A stretch of DNA of 64,000 bases from Thiohalocapsa sp. (GTDB lineage: Bacteria; Pseudomonadota; Gammaproteobacteria; Chromatiales; Chromatiaceae): the NCBI GenBank assembly GCA_028277725.1, contig JANQFX010000102.1:1-64000 (forward strand). The letters are read 5' to 3'. Shown here in pieces: positions 50,548 through 64,000 of this stretch; position 1 is the stretch's first letter; each line of letters starts with the position of its first letter. A model generated the notes under the pieces. The model made no database searches. It was not told where the DNA came from and was given only the letters and a program-made list of their open reading frames with translations. A program made the position numbers and the translations under genes.

Positions 50548-51039
50548 TTATCGGCGCTGCCCGTCCGCCGCCTCGGCGATGGCCGCAAGGAACTCGTCGA
50601 GCTGGTCCAGCTCGGTCAGCAGCGGCGGCAAGGCCGTCCGCAGATGCGCACGCAGGACCGACAACCGCTCCGCGTCCAGTTCGACCGCATAGGCATGGCG
50701 GAAAAAGTGCCGGAAGGACAACAGCTCCCGCAACGCGGACACCGACTCCCGCGACAAGACCGCGGGCCGAATGCCCTCGATGGCCAGGCCCATGGCGTGC
50801 AGCAGCTCCTGATGCCAATCGCCTCCGCTCGGCACATCGCCGTCCACATGCCGCGCCACGCGCAGCAGGATGCTCTCCATCGAGCCGTAAGCGTGGTGCA
50901 GTGCAACCGCCGCCTGCGCGCACACGGCCGCGTCGGCATCATCCCTGAGCTTCAGGCTTGCGAGTTCATGCACGCGTCGCTCCAATACCGCACGGTCGAA
51001 GGCGATCTCCGCGCGCAGTCGTTGAACCCTTGCGTTCAC
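50548..51039 (-). CDS. HepT-like toxin (HEPN nuclease family)
   Basis: RX4HXY motif in LSFRHFFRHAYAVEL; follows nucleotidyltransferase with 4-bp overlap. Confidence 0.72.
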   Translation of the reverse strand: MNARVQRLRAEIAFDRAVLERRVHELASLKLRDDADAAVCAQAAVALHHAYGSMESILLRVARHVDGDVPSGGDWHQELLHAMGLAIEGIRPAVLSRESVSALRELLSFRHFFRHAYAVELDAERLSVLRAHLRTALPPLLTELDQLDEFLAAIAEAADGQRR

Positions 51040-51395
51040 AGCTCGATCCCCTCCGCCGCGATGCGCTCCGCCAAACTCACCGGGGCCTCCTCCAGCCGCA
51101 CGAGATCCACCGGGCCGTTGACCAGGCCCATCAGCTCGGCGAGCGCCGCGAAGTAGCGGGCCGGCGGAATGCCGCTGGCTGCCAGATCGAGGTCGCTGCC
51201 GACATGGTGCCCGCCGGTCGCGAGCGAGCCGAACAGCACCACGCGCCGCGCCCCGTAGGTCTCCCGCAGGCAGCGCGCCGCCTCGGGCAGTATCGCCCGC
51301 AGCCGCGCCGCACGGGCGTCGGCCGCCGCCTGCTCGGCGGCGGCGCGGCGACGCAGATGGCGCGCGGTGTCAGCGGCTGTGATGGGCGGACTCAT
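51036..51395 (-). CDS. MntA-like minimal nucleotidyltransferase antitoxin
   Basis: RRVVLFGSLATGGHHVGSDLDLAASG: GSX10DXD motif. Confidence 0.8.
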   Translation of the reverse strand: MSPPITAADTARHLRRRAAAEQAAADARAARLRAILPEAARCLRETYGARRVVLFGSLATGGHHVGSDLDLAASGIPPARYFAALAELMGLVNGPVDLVRLEEAPVSLAERIAAEGIEL

Positions 51396-54607: not shown

Positions 54608-54973
54608 TCATCGACCACCGTCGCGATTCGCGCCCACCCGCACCCGATAGGTCGGCTCTTCCAAGAAACTGGACAGGAGTCGTCGGCGCGTCTTGGCGCC
54701 GACAAGACTGAGCTTCACGTGCTCCGTGCCGTCGGGTGTGCGTTCGTCGAAGCCTTCGCCCAGTCCGATGCCGCCAACGTCGGTGAGCGCGTACCGATCA
54801 TGCTCCTTGGACTTGGGCCAAGCGCAGCAGCGAATCTCGAAGCCGGCTGGACACTCACTCAGCAGATGCTGGCGCAGAGAGTCCTCCATGTCCTGACGAT
54901 GATCCGAGATGCCGCCCTGCCAGAATTCGAGCCAGAGTTTGTCGATCTTGTTGCGGAGGTCGCCGGTGATCAT
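54608..54973 (-). pseudogene. Chimeric/truncated ORF: HsdM-like N-terminus joined to an unrelated C-terminal segment
   Basis: MITGDLRNKIDKLWLEFWQGGIS matches typical HsdM N-termini; no methyltransferase motifs; remainder contains HDRYALTDVGGIGLGEGFDE. Confidence 0.6.
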
Positions 54974-54992: not shown

Positions 54993-55379
54993 TTACCAAA
55001 GGGTGGGGACGTCGTAGTTGGCTATGGCGGCATCGGCGGTGATGAGGGTCATGTCCTCGATCTGCGCCTGGGCGATGAGCATGCGGTCGAAGGGGTCGCG
55101 GTGGTGCATCGGTAGCTGCTGCAACCCCTGGATGTGGCGGAGCGACACCGTCAGTGTTTGTAGTCCGTTGGCTTGCTGCTGGGTGTGAAGCATCCTCGGC
55201 CAGGGCACGGTGAGCTCCAGCTTGCCCAGTTGATGCTTGATCTGAACCTCCCAGAGCGACGCTAGGCTGAGGTGCAGGCTGTTGGCCTGATCCTGACAAG
55301 CCGCGAGTGCGGCTTCGCCGACGCGTGTCGGGTCGGTGTTGAGCCACAGAAAGGCATGGGTATCCAGCAGCAGCTTCAT
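54993..55379 (-). CDS. PIN-domain toxin (VapC-like)
   Basis: MKLLLDTHAFLWLNTDP...SLASLWEVQIKHQLGKL...HHRDPFDRMLIAQAQIEDMTLITADAAI. Confidence 0.9.
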   Translation of the reverse strand: MKLLLDTHAFLWLNTDPTRVGEAALAACQDQANSLHLSLASLWEVQIKHQLGKLELTVPWPRMLHTQQQANGLQTLTVSLRHIQGLQQLPMHHRDPFDRMLIAQAQIEDMTLITADAAIANYDVPTLW

Positions 55380-55618
55380 GGGTTGCCGCCCAACCAGAAT
55401 TCGTCCGGCAGCTCGGCGTCGAAGTCGTCGCTCATCGTGATGGCGCCGGGGAATTGGCCGAAGGTGCGCACCGACTTTCCGACATCCGGTTTGTCGGTGG
55501 TCGCGGGGCTTTCGTACATCACCACGACCTTGGCCTTACCGGCCTGGACATCGTCCGGCAGCTTGAGGTGGATCTCGTGGTTCTCGTCGATTTCGGTTTC
55601 CAATTCGATGGCTTGCAT
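55376..55618 (-). CDS. Antitoxin for the PIN toxin (DUF2281-like)
   Basis: MQAIELETEIDENHEIHLKLPDDVQAGKAKVVVMYE...GAITMSDDFDAELPDEFWLGG; 4-bp overlap with PIN gene. Confidence 0.72.
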   Translation of the reverse strand: MQAIELETEIDENHEIHLKLPDDVQAGKAKVVVMYESPATTDKPDVGKSVRTFGQFPGAITMSDDFDAELPDEFWLGGNP

Positions 55619-55671
55619 GTCGTTAGCGCCTTTGTTGGGCGATGCCTGATGGGAATGGGTATTCGGGCGGC

Positions 55672-58600
55672 TCATGCCCCGTCATTCTGCTCGCTGACGT
55701 TCGGCGTCTTGCCGAAGCTCGCGACGATCTCCAGCAAGCGGTCGATCTGGTCGTCGGAGTCGAAGACGCTGTCCGGGTCACCGAGCTTGGCGAACGGCAT
55801 CTCGTAGAGGCTCTCCAGCTCAATGGCGCCGCTTTTGGCAATCTGGCGCTTGAGCATGCCGAGAAACTGCACCTGCTTGGCGGTGAGGCTCGGGTAGGCC
55901 TGCACGAAGTCGGCAAAACGGGCGTTGACGGCGGCCTCGTCCATGCCGACTACGGAACGCAGCACCTGTTCCATGGGCGCGGCGGTGTCGTAGAAGCCCT
56001 TGAGCACGTTCAGGTCAAGGTCCGGATGGCTGGTGTGGACCAGGGCGTTGAGGGCATCCAGTTCAGCCGGGGATACGGGCTCGCCATCGCGGATCTTCTT
56101 CAGCACAGGATCAGTCTCGAACAGGTCTTGAAGGGCCTGTTCCACCTTGACCTTGTAGGCCTTCATGTCGACGGAGGCCAGGTAGGTGCCTTGGGTCTCG
56201 CGGACCTCATTGGTGTCGGTGACGTCGATGACAGGCGGCGCGACCGGGGGCTGACTGCTACCGTCGCGGTACTTCATGATGTCCCGCAGCTCGATCCGTG
56301 CCTGTTCGAGCTCGTCCAGGGATGCCGCGCTCCACCACGCCGGGTCGCGGGCCTGCTTGATGGAGGTGGCCTTGGCCTGGACTTGGTTGAGGTTCATCTG
56401 CAGCTGGTGCAGCCGGTCCACGGCCTCGCCGACGCGGTCATCGAATAGGCCGGAGTTGTTGATCTTCTCGCGCTGGATGCGGGTGACGAGCAGATCCCAC
56501 TGGTAGGCGTCGGACTGGCCGCGGATGTCCACCCACTGCATGAGCGGAGCGATCTCGGTCTCCAGGGCAACGACGGTGTTGGGGGCGAGCTGGCGAATGA
56601 CCGGCAGCTCGCTCATGGTCTGCTTGACCTTCCACTTGTCCCGAACCGCCAGGGCCTTGTCGTCCAAGCTGTTGATGGCCTTGTGCATCCATTGCGCCAG
56701 CACGTCCACGAAGTCCACCTCGGCGGCCTGCAGCGCGGATTGGGTCAGGTCCAGACGGGCCTCGAACAGCACCTGCATAGTGGACTTGGATTGGGTGACG
56801 ACGACATCGCGCTGCTTTAGACCGTGGTACTCGACGACGCCCCAGTGATCGAAGATCTGGAAGTGGGTCTTGTCCTTGCCGGGGCCGAGCAGGCGCTTGT
56901 ACAGCCTCGTGCCGCGCCCGACCATCTGCCAGAACTTGACCGGTGACTTGACCGGGCGGGCGAAGACCAGGTTGACCACCTCCGGCACATCGATGCCGGT
57001 GTCCAGCATGTCGACGGAGATGGCGATGGTGAGTTGGTCGTTACTGCCGTCGCCTTTGAAGTCGTCGATCAGGTCCTCGGCGCGCGGGTCGTAGTTGTCG
57101 ATGACCTGGCAGAACTTGCCGGCGTACTGCGGGAACAGTTCGTCAAACAGCTGTTCCAGCAGCTTGGCATGGCGATGATTGCGGGCGAAGACGATGGTCT
57201 TGCCGAGCGTCTGGCCGTCCGCTTGGCGGATGCCGTGATCCATCAGGTTCTGCAGGATCTTGCGGTTGGTGTCCTTGTTGTAGATGGCGCGGTCGATCTG
57301 GTCGCTGTCGAAGTCCAAGGCGTTGGGATCGATGCCTTGGTCCTCCAGCTCGGCGACCTGCTCGGCAGTCAGCGCGTGGCCTTTGATGCCGTCGCGCAGG
57401 AAGCCGGTGGTGTGCTTGACGACTTGGTAGGGGACCAGATAGCCGTCCTCCACCGCGCGGTCCAGGTCGTAGTTGGCGGTGGGCTGTTTGAACTCGCAGT
57501 CGAACAGGCGACAGGTAGAGCGGCTGACCATCTCCACAGGCGTGGCGGTGAGGCCGAGTTGAAGCGCATCGAAATAGCGGAACAGGTCACCGTAGACGTT
57601 GTAGATGCTGCGGTGGGACTCGTCGGCGATGACCAGATCGAAGAAGCCTGGGTCGAAGCGCTCGAAGATCTTGAGCATCGCCGGGTAGGTGGCGAGGAAG
57701 ACTTGGCTCGCGACGTCGTCGGCACTGCTGCTATTCAGCACGGTCACCGGTGCGCTGAGGAACTGGCTGTAGGCGTTCTTGGCCTGTTTGCGCAGCTCGC
57801 GCCGGTCGCAAAGAAACAGGATGCGCTTGGCCCAACCGGCCTGCATGCAGACGTCGGACAGCGCGATGGCGAGACGGGTCTTGCCGGTGCCGGTGGCCTG
57901 CACGGCCAAGCCCCTGCGCTGCTTGGTCTCGTAACGCTCACAAATGCGCTTCAGGGCCTCATGCTGATAGAGCCGGTCGGTGAGGATCTCCGGTTTCGGA
58001 GAGACGCTGGCGAATGGCTTGCGTTCCGAGCGCTTGCGGATCAGGTGTTGCAGGCTGCCCTTTGCGTAGAAGTCGTAGAGGCGCCGGGGCGGATAGGCCT
58101 GAGACGGATGGTCGTCCCAGACCCAGATGTCATGGCCGTTGGTGTAGAAGATGACGGGTCGCTGGCCGTGCATCTTCTCCAGTCCATCGGCATAGTGACG
58201 AGCCTGATGGCGGCCTTTCTCCGCGTCGACCGCGGTCTTCTTGGCCTCGATAACGGCCAAGGGCTTGCCGTTGTCGTCCCAGAGTACGTAATCGGCCCGG
58301 CCGATGCCCGTGGGCGTCGGCTGGTGCAGGATGTCCACCTCTTGGCCGACCTGCTCTGTGCTCGCACCATCGGCGCCGATGTTCCAGCCGCGCCCGGCAA
58401 GCAGGGTGTCGATGAGCCGGCGGCGGGTGCTCTCCTCGTCGAGTTTGAGCTGACTTGCGGCACCCTGGGCCTTGGCCTTTAGTGCATCCAGTTCTGTCTG
58501 AGTCTTCTCGAGCTCAGAGGACTTCTGCTTCTCTGCCTCCAGTTCCGCCAGCAAGACTTGCATCTGAGCCTCTTGCTTCGCGAACTTCTTCATTAGAGCT

Positions 58601-59073
58601 TTGCGTTCCTTCTTGAACTGGCTCTTGGCGGACGCCTGCGGCTGGGGCTGCTTAAAGGTCGGGAGGTCGCTTGCCTCACCCTGCCCATAGCTCACCAGCA
58701 CCCAACGGCTCAGATCCCATGCTTCACGTAGCAGCCAGAGCGCAGTCTCCGCAGAGACCTTGTCGCCGTGAGCTGCCTTATTGCCGTGGATACGCATGGC
58801 GTGGAGCTTATCCAGCACGACCCTCGGCGAGATCGCCTGGAAGGCATGGCTGCTGAGCAGTTCCATGAAGCTCGCCATCGGCGGACGGGGGAGGTCCGCC
58901 CTATGATAGACAACCGCGACGAGCCGCTCGGCGAACGCCCGAAGCTTGACCAGGGCGCTTGACGGGTCCACCGCCGCGTATTGCTCCGCGAAGCCTGCGA
59001 GTGATGCCAGCTCAGGCCACTTGGGCCTCAGATGCTCGAAGTTCTGCGATTCCATGATCTGCGGTGCGCTCAT
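55672..59073 (-). CDS. hsdR: Type I restriction enzyme R subunit (HsdR-like) with DUF4145-like N-terminus
   Basis: [28 protein letters not shown] nuclease motif; [18 protein letters not shown] Walker A; DESHRS; TDVL-like [38 protein letters not shown]. Confidence 0.9.
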
Positions 59074-59085
59074 GCCTAAGCTCTA

Positions 59086-59102
59086 AGCGAAGGCCGTGCC
59101 AA
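59086..59102 (-). promoter_or_regulatory. Candidate sigma54 (-24/-12) promoter for hsdR
   Basis: Minus strand TTGGCACG-GCCT-TCGCT vs consensus TTGGCACG-N4-TTGCW: one mismatch, exact spacing, immediately after activator stop codon. Confidence 0.65.
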
Positions 59103-60626
59103 CTACGTTTCGACGCCGTGCTTCTTGATCCAGCCGTTCAGCGTCTGGTAGCTCCCGAGCCCCAGGAGGGCGGCCGCCTTTGAGCGATTCTCGCCTGTTT
59201 GTGTTAGCGCCCGAACGACGTAGTGTCGTACGACCTCATCGATAACCGAATGAATATCAAAGACTTCATCAATCGTTCGACCTAAGACTCCCTGTTCTTG
59301 GGACAGGCCGCGGAACATCGCTGCTTCGAGGTCTGCTGCATCGATTCTCTTGTTCTGAGACCAGAGTGATGCTCGCAGCAAGGTCGAGTTCAGCTCGCGT
59401 ATGTTACCGGGCCACCGATGCTGTCTGATAAGATTTCTTCCCTCAACAGAGATTTTCTTCTGCACGAAGCCAGGCTGACCAGCGGCGTCACGGTTGATTC
59501 GTTGCAGCAGCGCGTCGGCGAGCAGCGGGAGGTCGCCGGCTCGCTCCCGCAGTGGGGGCAGATTGAGCACGCCGACCGCGACTCGGTAGAAAAGATCCTC
59601 TCGGAACCGACCCATCGCGACCTCCTGGACGAGGTTCCGGTTGGTCGCGGCGATCACGCGCACATCGACGCCTTTAGCCACGGTGCTTCCTACGGGATAG
59701 AAATCCCCCGTTTGCAGGACACGGAGCAGCCGAACCTGCGCGTCCAGGGAAAGTTCACCGAGTTCATCAAGGAAGAGCGTACCGCCGTCTGCCCGCTCGA
59801 AATAGCCGGCCTTGGATGCGCCAGCCCCGGTGAAGGCGCCCTTCACGTGTCCAAAGAGCGCAGAGTCAGCTAGCTCTCGGGGGATCGCGCCGCAGTTAAC
59901 CGGCACGAATACTCGGTCGCGGCGCGGGCTGGCGTTGTGGATAGCGGTTGCGAACAGCTCCTTGCCTGTACCCGTCTCACCGTGGATCAGGACCGGTACT
60001 TCGCGTGTGGCCATGACGTTTGCTTGAGCGATGAGCTCACACATCGCCGGATCTTGTGTGAGGATGTCATCGAACGCTGCGTCAATCGGGACGTCTGCGG
60101 CGAGCAGGCGTCCGACCTGCCTTGCGCTGCGAGCAGACAGCTCAGGCAAGAACTCCGCGGAGATATCGAACGGGATGTTGACCTGTTCGACACCCTCCTC
60201 GACGGACGACTGGAAAAAGACAGCGGGATACTTGGTCTTGCCGAGCAGAACCCAGACGGCCTGCATGGCAGGAGTTCCAGGGCTGAGCAGGATGCAGAGA
60301 GTGTCGGAAGGATGCTCTGCGCAGGCCTTCGCCAGGCAACCGTCGGCTGCTTGGTAGATGTCATGGTAGTGGACAGGGGAGCGTAGCTGGGCGCGCGCGC
60401 TCTCGATTGGCGTGTCAATCACCGAGTGCAGCAGATTCAGGTATGGCGTTATCTCCTCGGCCGCGTAGTTGTAGAGCAGATAGGCGCACCGAAATCGCTC
60501 GGCGAACAGGGTTGAGGCAATGGGCCCAGCAGCTTCGGCGCCTTCGCTCTCTGCGGAGCTGGCGGTAAGGTCAGCGCGACCGATCCAACTGACTAAGACT
60601 CTCGACAAGGACACCTCGGGCGACAT
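59103..60626 (-). CDS. Sigma54-dependent activator with CARF/RtcR-like N-terminal sensor domain, AAA+ and Fis-type HTH
   Basis: VPVLIHGETGTGKELFATAIH, GAFTGAGASKAGYFERADGGTLFLDELGELSLD (GAFTGA loop), RSKAAALLGLGSYQTLNGWIKKHG HTH; N-terminus VLVSWIGRADL... and LSPGTPAMQAVWVLLGKTKYP. Confidence 0.85.
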   Translation of the reverse strand: MSPEVSLSRVLVSWIGRADLTASSAESEGAEAAGPIASTLFAERFRCAYLLYNYAAEEITPYLNLLHSVIDTPIESARAQLRSPVHYHDIYQAADGCLAKACAEHPSDTLCILLSPGTPAMQAVWVLLGKTKYPAVFFQSSVEEGVEQVNIPFDISAEFLPELSARSARQVGRLLAADVPIDAAFDDILTQDPAMCELIAQANVMATREVPVLIHGETGTGKELFATAIHNASPRRDRVFVPVNCGAIPRELADSALFGHVKGAFTGAGASKAGYFERADGGTLFLDELGELSLDAQVRLLRVLQTGDFYPVGSTVAKGVDVRVIAATNRNLVQEVAMGRFREDLFYRVAVGVLNLPPLRERAGDLPLLADALLQRINRDAAGQPGFVQKKISVEGRNLIRQHRWPGNIRELNSTLLRASLWSQNKRIDAADLEAAMFRGLSQEQGVLGRTIDEVFDIHSVIDEVVRHYVVRALTQTGENRSKAAALLGLGSYQTLNGWIKKHGVET

Positions 60627-60910: not shown

Positions 60911-62398
60911 TCAGACCCCATGGCCCCGGTCCAACTCGCACCGCGGCACCCAGCAGCCGTGGAAGCCGACGGGGACGGCATGCGGCAGGGTGGCGGTGGC
61001 CTGGAGGCTCAGGTCCGCGGCGCGCAGGACGACCAGATCGGTTCCGCCCGTCCCGGCACGGAAGACCAGACTCAGCAGCCAACCCTCGCCGCCGTCATCG
61101 TCCGGCACCAGCATGGGCTCGCCGACCAGGTCGAGGCCGAAGTCCCGCGTGGTGAGCCGGCCGGTCTCGGTATCCAGGCGCTGGATGGACGTCAGGAAGG
61201 GGGTGCGCCGATCCGGCGGCGCGCCGACGCCATAGAGGATGCGCTGCCGCTCACCGAGGGCCGTCGGGGCGCTGACCGGCAACTCGAATGCATGGTCGTC
61301 GACCTCCGGGCCGAGGCTCAGGCGCTCGCAGCGACCGGCGGCCGGGTCGATGAGCAGGCGCTCCAGGCGCGGCACGACGCCGTCCGGTGGATTGCGGAGC
61401 AGCTCGTCGAAGGCGTCGAAGTCCGGGTATCGGCCGAAGCGGATCACGTCCAGCACCAGGTGCCGGCCGTCGTCGAAGGCCTGGGCGACATGGAACACGA
61501 AGCCCGGCGGCCCGGACAGGACGATGGGCCCCTGCGCAGCCGAGGTCTCACCGCGCGGCAGCAGCAGCACCTGCATGGGCCGGTCCGTCTCCAGGCGCAG
61601 GGAGCCGACTGGCGTTTTCAGCCCCAACAGCGCCCGCGTCAAGTCGAAGTCCGCATAGGGCAGCAAAAAGCAGCGCCAGCGGCGGGTGATGGCGAAGTCG
61701 TGCAGGAAGCTGAAGCGCTCCAGGGCATGCTGCTCGGGCGCCTCCATGCGCCCGTCGGCGCCGATGCGGTAGAGCATCAGCAGATTCGGCCGGCCGGAGA
61801 CGAGGCCGAAGTTGTGCAGTTCCCCGCTCGCGGCATCCAGCGTCGGGTGCGCAGAGAAGGGCAGCAGCGGCGCCAGCCACCGACCCAGGCCCGAAAACGG
61901 GCTGGCCAGACCGCCGCCGAACTCCTCGGTACCCAGGTTGGCAAGCGTGGCTGGGTCCAGGCGGTGGGGCGGGCCGCCCTCCCAGAGCGCGAGCAGCCGC
62001 CCGGCATGCCAGCGGACACTGGTGTTGGCGGCGTTCTTGAAATTGAGCCGAAACAGATTGGCCGGCAGCCCGCCCGGCAGATTGGTGCCGAAGGCGCGAT
62101 AGCGCATGCGCCCGCTGCGTTCCTCCTCCAGGTACTCGCAGGTGCGGACGAAGCGGTTGCTGTAGCGCACCTGACCGGCGCGCAGGTCGAGCTTGGTGAT
62201 GTGCCCGTCGCCGTCGAAGGGATGGCGGTAGCGCTGGCCGCCGCGCTCGAAGCGGCCGGGGCCGTTGCGGAAGTAGCAGCCGTCGATGGCCGCGGGGAGC
62301 TCGCCCTGCACCGGCAGCGGCACGTCGCCGTGTTCTTCTCGGACGGTCCGGGTCGCGGCCGCGAGGACCTGCTCCATGTCGGTACTGGTCAAGTCCAT
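60911..62398 (-). CDS. Carotenoid oxygenase family protein (paralog 1)
   Basis: DGCYFRNGPGRFERGGQRYRHPFDGDGHI; NFKNAANTSVRWHAGRLLALWEGGPPHRLDP; FLHDFAIT; HGCWVPR. Confidence 0.87.
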   Translation of the reverse strand: MDLTSTDMEQVLAAATRTVREEHGDVPLPVQGELPAAIDGCYFRNGPGRFERGGQRYRHPFDGDGHITKLDLRAGQVRYSNRFVRTCEYLEEERSGRMRYRAFGTNLPGGLPANLFRLNFKNAANTSVRWHAGRLLALWEGGPPHRLDPATLANLGTEEFGGGLASPFSGLGRWLAPLLPFSAHPTLDAASGELHNFGLVSGRPNLLMLYRIGADGRMEAPEQHALERFSFLHDFAITRRWRCFLLPYADFDLTRALLGLKTPVGSLRLETDRPMQVLLLPRGETSAAQGPIVLSGPPGFVFHVAQAFDDGRHLVLDVIRFGRYPDFDAFDELLRNPPDGVVPRLERLLIDPAAGRCERLSLGPEVDDHAFELPVSAPTALGERQRILYGVGAPPDRRTPFLTSIQRLDTETGRLTTRDFGLDLVGEPMLVPDDDGGEGWLLSLVFRAGTGGTDLVVLRAADLSLQATATLPHAVPVGFHGCWVPRCELDRGHGV

Positions 62399-62514
62399 GC
62401 GGTGGAGCTCCGGGCGTTCGCGGGGTTGGGCACTACATTGGGGTTCATGCCCGTGTTTCGGGCCGGCGACGCGAACGCCTGCACCTGCGCCTGCGTCTAC
62501 CCGTGGGCCAGACC

Positions 62515-62940
62515 TCAACCCTTCTTCAGCAGGTCCGCCAGATCACCGAAGGGCCGGTGGGTCGTGGTGCTGGCCTTGCCGGCGTCGGCGTTGTCGGCGT
62601 CCGGGTCGCGCCCGGCGGCGATGGCCGCGATGCGCTCTTCGAACTTCTGGTGCTCGTTGTCGTGACAGTACAGGCAGAGCAGCTCCCAGTTGCTGCCGTC
62701 CGCCGGGTTGTTGTCGTGGTCCATGTCCTTGTGATGGACCGTCAGCTCGCGCAGGTTGGTGCGATCGAAGCTGCGCCCGCAGCGCCCGCAGACCCAGGGG
62801 TAGAGCTTCAGCGCCTGCTCGCGGTAGCCGGCGGCGCGTTCATCGCTGGCGCGGCGCGCGGAGGCGACGATGCGATCGAGCTTGTCGGTGTCGATGGTCC
62901 GTCCGGTCTTGCCGTGGCGGGGGAGGTCGTTCTTGCCCAT
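62515..62940 (-). CDS. yajD: YajD-like HNH nuclease
   Basis: KLYPWVCGRCGRSFDRTNLRELTVHHKDMDHDNNPADGSNWELLCLYCHDNEHQKFE. Confidence 0.92.
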   Translation of the reverse strand: MGKNDLPRHGKTGRTIDTDKLDRIVASARRASDERAAGYREQALKLYPWVCGRCGRSFDRTNLRELTVHHKDMDHDNNPADGSNWELLCLYCHDNEHQKFEERIAAIAAGRDPDADNADAGKASTTTHRPFGDLADLLKKG

Positions 62941-62970
62941 GTCTCGAACCCAGGAGGATGAAGCTTGAAG

Positions 62971-63058
62971 GGTGAAGTTTGAAGTGAGAAGGGGGAGTGT
63001 GAAAGGGCGGACCGCGTCTTCTTCTTTCACACTTCACACTTCATACTTCGAACTTCAC
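62971..63058. repeat. Imperfect inverted repeat built of GTGAAGT-like units
   Basis: GGTGAAGTTTGAAGTGAGAAGGGGGAGTGTGAAAG... opposed to CTTTCACACTTCACACTTCATACTTCGAACTTCAC. Confidence 0.75.
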
Positions 63059-63060
63059 GC

Positions 63061-64000
63061 ATGCCGACTCAGCCAGTATCCCAAATGCCAGCCGATCCAG
63101 CCCAACGCCCCTGGGCCGGGGCGCTCGCCCATCCAGCGCGGGAGTTCGCCGCTACCCGGCTCGAGGTCCGGCGCGGGGCCCTGCCGGCGGGGCTGCGCGG
63201 CACGCTCTATCGCAACGGCCCGGCCCGGCTGGAGCGCGGCGGGGTCCGCGTCGGTCATTGGTTCGATGGCGACGGGGCCGTGTTGCGGTTGTGCTTCGGC
63301 GGCGACGCCGCCGAGGCCAGCTATCGCTACGTGCGCAGTCGGGGCTACCTGCGGGAGGAGGCGGCCGGCCGGCTGCTCTTCGGCAACTACGGCATGACCG
63401 CACCCGGGCCGGTCTGGAACCAGTGGCGACGCCCGCTCAAGAACGCCGCCAATACCTCCGTGATCGCCCTCGACGACCGCGTGCTGGCGCTCTGGGAGGG
63501 CGGCGGCCCGCACGCCCTGGACCCGACGACCCTGGAGACCCTCGGCGAGACGAACCTCGATGGCCCCGGCGGCAGGCTCGAGCAGCAGCAGCCCTTCTCC
63601 GCCCACCCGAAGCAGGACCCGGAGACCGGCGATATCTACAACTTCGGTGTCTCGATTCCGGGGCCGAACGCCCGCTTGATGCTCTACCGCTGCGACCGCG
63701 CGGGGCGACTGCAGGCCAAGGCGCAGCAGCCGCTGAGCGGCGTGCCCATGATCCACGACTGGGTCCTGGCCGGGCGTTGGCTGGTCTTCCTGGTGCCTCC
63801 GGTGCGCATTTCGGTCTGGCCGGTGCTGCTCGGACTCCAGTCCTACGCCGCGGCCATGTCCTGGCGCCCGGAGCTCGGCACCCAGATCCTGGTGTTCGAC
63901 CGCCACAGCCTGGAGCTGGTGGCCCGCAACGAAACGGGGCCCTTCTACCAATGGCACTTCGGCAACGCGGCCTGCATCGACGACGGCTGGTTGGTGCTGG
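63061..64000 (+). CDS. Carotenoid oxygenase family protein (paralog 2), truncated by window end
   Basis: Open frame from ATG 63061 to window end: LYRNGPARLERGGVRVGHWFDGDG, KNAANTSVIALDDRVLALWEGGGPHALDP, NFGVSIPG, MIHDWVL, YQWHFGNAA. Confidence 0.9.
   Translation, partial: MPTQPVSQMPADPAQRPWAGALAHPAREFAATRLEVRRGALPAGLRGTLYRNGPARLERGGVRVGHWFDGDGAVLRLCFGGDAAEASYRYVRSRGYLREEAAGRLLFGNYGMTAPGPVWNQWRRPLKNAANTSVIALDDRVLALWEGGGPHALDPTTLETLGETNLDGPGGRLEQQQPFSAHPKQDPETGDIYNFGVSIPGPNARLMLYRCDRAGRLQAKAQQPLSGVPMIHDWVLAGRWLVFLVPPVRISVWPVLLGLQSYAAAMSWRPELGTQILVFDRHSLELVARNETGPFYQWHFGNAACIDDGWLVL

Follow-up and report, generated by a model that had tools for sequence, protein, structure and literature searches.

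The locus considered here lies in a stretch of 64,000 nucleotides of DNA from Thiohalocapsa sp. (contig JANQFX010000102.1, positions 1 to 64,000; hereafter the window) and is composed of a gene for a predicted sigma54 activator and, behind it on the same strand, hsdR, which encodes the restriction subunit of a type I restriction-modification (R-M) system. The activator gene (59103..60626, minus strand) encodes a 507-aa CARF-AAA+-HTH protein of the RtcR_PspF2 family, and the product of hsdR (55672..59073, minus strand) is an intact protein of 1133 aa. The initial annotation had described two co-directional genes lying 29 nt apart, and their coordinates and domains were confirmed. The hsdR stop overlaps by 4 nt a VapB-like antitoxin gene (55376..55675, minus strand; NCBIfam TA_VapB, E 8e-5, under the cut-off; probable start 55618), which in turn overlaps by 4 nt a gene for a VapC-like PIN-domain toxin (54993..55379, minus strand; Pfam PIN, 3.5e-10), and a 121-codon open reading frame (ORF) at 54608-54973 is next. 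Given the overlap of the VapB/VapC-like genes with the end of hsdR, the transcription unit is predicted to extend past 55672-60626. The GC content is 0.60-0.63 in this island compared with 0.68-0.72 in its flanks; direct repeats that might mark an insertion around the island were weak and belonged to chance-like families only. The locus is, with good confidence, a copy, damaged by deletion, of a defence operon that recurs among relatives.

The activator, the predicted promoter and hsdR

The activator scored 650 bits against PADLOC PDLC01995 (RtcR_PspF2--CARF_AAA_HTH), with residues 9-506 of 507 aligned to positions 2-481 of 481 in the model, and 331.6 bits against the NCBIfam RtcR equivalog, the cut-off of which is 650. 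Pfam identified Sigma54_activat (2.6e-65) plus AAA lid domains, and the Walker motifs and sigma54-contact loop were located at residues 216 (Walker A, GETGTGKE), 263 (contact loop, GAFTGA) and 281. The sensor occupies residues ~7-154 (60165..60608, minus strand). For residues 1-187, an AlphaFold2 model built from a seven-sequence alignment (mean pLDDT 80.5) gave Csm6 (6tug) as its best PDB match (Z 16.8, rmsd 2.8, 145 aligned), followed among the top matches by Csm6' (8pe3, Z 15.3), VC1899 (Z 14.1), Cad1, Can2 and Csa3; the upper part of the match list consisted of CARF proteins throughout. In the alignment and model, the first and the fourth main strand end at two conserved motifs, SWIGxTDLxA and SPGTPAM, and the 2014 account of CARF domains places the ligand pockets at such strand ends (PMC4012209). 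The modelled structure thus supports the CARF fold proposed for this domain in the initial annotation.

When the full activator was used as query against the genome contigs, mostly generic sigma54 AAA+ domains were matched. Searches with the sensor domain covered relatives, the order, class and phylum, plus plasmids and viral contigs, and yielded 59 non-redundant full-length activators. The cargo was hsdR in 21 of these, that is in 20 relatives and the window, so that the adjacency of hsdR to the activator is recurrent.

A candidate sigma54 -24/-12 promoter, TGGCAC-GGCCT-TCGCT (GG-N10-GC; 59086..59101, minus strand), begins one base past the activator stop, inside the 29-nt gap, and agrees with the consensus at 10 of 11 positions. 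With a match defined as GG-N10-GC, at least 9 of 11 consensus positions and a distance of no more than 60 nt from the activator stop, promoters were found 0-35 nt after the stop in 20 of the 21 non-redundant activator-hsdR loci (window included), where dinucleotide shuffles predicted 0.24. An earlier set of 34 loci gave 21 matches against 0.23 expected; in its controls none of 71 other gene ends from these loci was followed by a match, and 0.7% of background tiles contained one. In several activators the stop codon itself overlaps the promoter (TGATGGCA). Recurrence so far above chance is strong sequence evidence that hsdR is a sigma54 target, and rpoN was found in the genome; the transcriptional switch suggested initially is therefore upheld at the level of predicted promoters. 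The predicted transcription start lies ~12 nt past the -12 element, nearly on the annotated HsdR ATG at 59073. Owing to this near coincidence, and since relatives align from codons 5-7, the true start is probably the ATG at 59055 (codon 7).

HsdR matched the type I R model of PADLOC (PDLC03047) with 858 bits and contains the Pfam domains DUF4145, HSDR_N, ResIII/SWI2_SNF2, Helicase_C and EcoEI_R_C. The motifs EAK, Walker A and DESH are present, and only 2 of the 222 columns that are invariant in 16 relatives are changed. Relaxed selection on HsdR was considered, but relative-rate tests were weak (97 versus 66 changes, chi2 5.9; 89 versus 67, chi2 3.1) and point at most weakly to acceleration of HsdR.

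A probably interrupted hsdRMS operon

In the relatives the gene order is regular. hsdM follows hsdR in 20 of 20, with its start overlapping the hsdR stop or lying no more than 64 nt from it in 11, and hsdS is next wherever the contig continues. The same-genus genome (contig G009:C53, locus L107) carries activator-hsdR-hsdM-hsdS, with an HsdR 78% identical to that of the window. Plasmid pVF1 of Vitreoscilla filiformis also bears the operon in intact form. Downstream of hsdS a pair formed by an OLD-like ATPase and a partner protein of ~300 aa was found in loci L163, L157, L178, L238 and others. The intact order read from these sequences would be activator, sigma54 promoter, hsdR, accessory gene(s), hsdM, hsdS, OLD-like ATPase and partner gene.

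It had been noted initially that no complete hsdM or hsdS is encoded in the window. This is correct for complete genes, but an hsdM stump of 24 codons at 54902-54973 (minus strand) had been missed. The stump forms the beginning of the 121-codon ORF, and its DNA homology to hsdM extends over 65 bp (54909-54973), at 89% identity to L107, 88% to L160 and 83% to L238. A plasmid-wide tblastn search with the ORF returned eight records in which the match began at residue 1 and ended at residue 24-30; in annotated plasmid records the matches fall at the start of DNA methyltransferase genes. The remaining ~97 codons (54608..54901, minus strand) match the C-terminal part of the ~300-aa ATPase partner (tblastn, L235 3e-8, L163 5e-5) and represent the 3' end of its gene, joined in frame to the hsdM stump. 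Since the other half of the fusion is the end of a gene located past hsdS in relatives, a single deletion, running from hsdM codon 24 into the last gene of the operon and estimated from gene sizes at ~5 kb, would explain the absence of both hsdM and hsdS. The operon in the window accordingly reads, on sequence, as interrupted rather than as lacking hsdM by design.

The initial annotation had proposed that an orphan HsdR might have been recruited as a stand-alone effector, under transcriptional control of the CARF/sigma54 activator, for a modification-independent or conditionally lethal degradation of DNA. HsdR and the activator are intact, the promoter is preserved and no cognate hsdM or hsdS was found in the assembly, and these points speak for such an effector. 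However, hsdM is the next gene in every relative, the window itself retains an hsdM stump fused to the operon tail, and an HsdR of the type I kind needs the M2S complex for DNA recognition. This claim is thus not supported, and we regard it as highly improbable. The window copy looks like a recent relic, not a new stand-alone weapon, and its intact HsdR, with no cognate M2S, would most likely be inactive unless it can use an M2S from elsewhere.

Service in trans, by HsdM and HsdS encoded elsewhere in the genome, would make the locus a working inducible restriction subunit. Such an arrangement agrees with the intact HsdR and with the incompleteness of the assembly, and contig C64 of the same genome (L002) carries a fragment of a different type I-like hsdM, upstream of a gene with a DUF1016-like start and an HsdS-like end; the fragment belongs to a different family from the stump in the window. 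A search of the assembly, which is a draft of 121 contigs and 84% complete, found no hsdM or hsdS of matching kind: a close HsdM query matched the stump only, and no Methylase_S domain was found. Supply in trans is therefore considered unlikely.

Certain points weigh against the reading as a deletion-damaged operon. The M2S genes may be among those missing from the incomplete assembly. The contig, being part of a draft in 121 pieces, could also be misjoined at ~54902, in which case the real genome would have intact hsdM and hsdS; both sides of the join, however, derive from the same type of operon, in the order and strand that a simple deletion would leave, they are fused in frame, and no other contig of the assembly carries the missing part of hsdM, so that an artefact is quite unlikely. 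Clear signs of decay are missing from both HsdR and the activator, which suggests either that the deletion is recent or that HsdR is still useful. Among the 21 loci L173 is the sole exception in having no clear promoter, and no inverted repeat that could represent a conserved upstream activator-binding site was found to be shared by the regions upstream of the activators.

Decay is apparent in other loci too. In L236, the activator of which is nearest to that of the window (70%), vapB and part of vapC come directly after the activator, and hsdR is gone; the loss suggests that this branch is prone to decay. An activator-hsdRMS operon on the Azotobacter chroococcum plasmid pAcX50d (L096:9526-15721) has both hsdR and hsdM split across frames and is a decaying copy.

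The gap between hsdR and hsdM serves as an accessory slot in other loci, where it holds a 656-aa gene (L155), a 327-aa gene (L175), long putative coiled-coil genes (L161, L165) or a gene for a 226-aa putative uracil-DNA glycosylase (L238). The position of VapBC in the window fits this slot. Relatives of the VapB-like gene were found in L224, L232 and L236, and in intact relatives no VapBC match was found in the gap that separates hsdR from hsdM. Ectopic VapC induces the Escherichia coli rtc operon (cited in PMC7790460). A role for VapC as signal amplifier was set aside as the principal interpretation, given the lack of VapBC matches at this position in intact relatives.

Apparent exchange of regulators, and other cargos

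The HsdR proteins of the window, L107, L238 and L160 belong to a single clade (support 1.0), but the activators encoded with them are placed apart from one another in the activator tree. When the window is compared with L107, similarity at the DNA level spans hsdR and its promoter and drops off at the activator. These sequence comparisons suggest that activators have been exchanged between hsdR operons at the promoter/activator junction.

Other activators of the family head clusters of VWA, PP2C, kinase and helicase genes, OLD-like ATPase pairs (AriA/GajA-like matches), a reverse transcriptase, MoxR-vWA with a DrmA-like gene, or a DpdF-like helicase. Reverse-transcriptase-containing clusters headed by such an activator are found in L229 (3704-10243), L233 and L105, and in L169 (2582-17905) two convergent activators of the family flank a type I-like cluster of another kind. 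Members of the activator family are also encoded on eight IMG/VR contigs with a viral classification (L209-L216), some with a promoter match ~100 nt or less from the stop; the sensor domain had no match among phage records.

Possible mode of action and relation to known systems

By analogy with RtcR, the CARF domain would keep the AAA+ activator inactive until a signal of infection or damage, probably RNA ends or a cyclic oligonucleotide, is bound, and binding would free the AAA+ ring to assemble. The ring would then contact RNA polymerase-sigma54 at the promoter seen just past the activator's own stop, and hsdR, together with hsdMS in most loci, would be transcribed in the observed gene order. 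In the window copy the deletion would deprive HsdR of its specificity partners. R-M systems are usually held to depend on methylation that protects the host DNA at all times. With hsdR in first place and hsdM closely coupled to it, host DNA may be unmethylated before induction; the system may be self-destructive when induced, or hsdMS may be under another promoter. The intact family would then either express methylation in another way or practise an alarm-triggered, suicidal form of restriction, and it is here that the interest lies, the relic in the window being unremarkable alone. We suggest tentatively, as a possibility well short of even, that a portable CARF-sigma54 alarm cassette, with its promoter at the regulator stop, can be combined with a variety of defence cargos (type I R-M, OLD-like ATPase pairs, reverse-transcriptase systems and kinase/helicase clusters), and that in its R-M form all of hsdRMS, headed by R, stays off until the alarm and would on induction cut the unmodified chromosome as a self-destructive type I restriction system.

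RtcR-like CARF-AAA-HTH activators were linked to R-M, and predicted to regulate restriction, in 2014 (Makarova et al., 2014, PMC4012209). Those regulators (RtcR_PspF2 in PADLOC) have the same architecture, and the same sigma54 control of restriction by a CARF-sensed ligand was proposed; in the main text of that paper the association is given in general terms, whereas the present loci add the promoter position, the hsdR-first order, the swapping of regulators and a broken copy. RtcR of rtcBA is likewise a CARF-AAA-HTH sigma54 activator (PMC7790460, PMC9650030). Binding of 5' tRNA halves that carry a 2',3'-cyclic phosphate to its CARF domain makes it oligomerise (Hughes et al., 2020, PMC7790460); in vitro it was not activated by oligoadenylates (Kotta-Loizou et al., 2022, PMC9650030). 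In contrast to RtcR, the cargo here is restriction or defence, the activator score of 332 bits stays under the 650-bit equivalog cut-off, and the ligand of this family may differ; the neighbours of the activator are hsdR and RPE65-like genes, with no adjoining rtcBA, and the RtcB gene of the genome is on a separate contig. RtcR homologues also head the long CoCoNuT defence superoperons, which may include type I R-M (eLife 2024, PMC11090510). The loci examined here differ in that their cargo is hsdRMS plus the OLD-like ATPase pair and that no McrBC/CoCoNuT genes were identified in them, no systematic search having been made. Ordinary type I R-M systems (EcoKI-like hsdR family, PRK11448) share the HsdR domains and, with the relatives, the downstream hsdM-hsdS, but here hsdR is first under a predicted sigma54 promoter, with hsdM close behind in 11 of 20 loci.

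No paper that treats CARF, sigma54 and type I restriction jointly was returned by a literature search of incomplete coverage. At the family level, the promoter tied to the regulator stop, the swapped regulators, the hsdR-first, putatively co-transcribed R-M operon and the heading of several defence cargos by one switch may be new, as may the promoter statistics. The copy in the window is an impaired example of a type already known. A promoter at the regulator stop offers a simple sequence signature for sigma54-controlled defence genes.

Close to the island, a MNT/HepT-like nucleotidyltransferase-HEPN toxin-antitoxin pair is located at 50548-51395. On the other side of the activator lie an RPE65-type carotenoid-oxygenase-like gene (60911-62518) and a similar-looking gene on the opposite strand (63061-64000), with a gene for an HNH endonuclease (62515-63030) between them.

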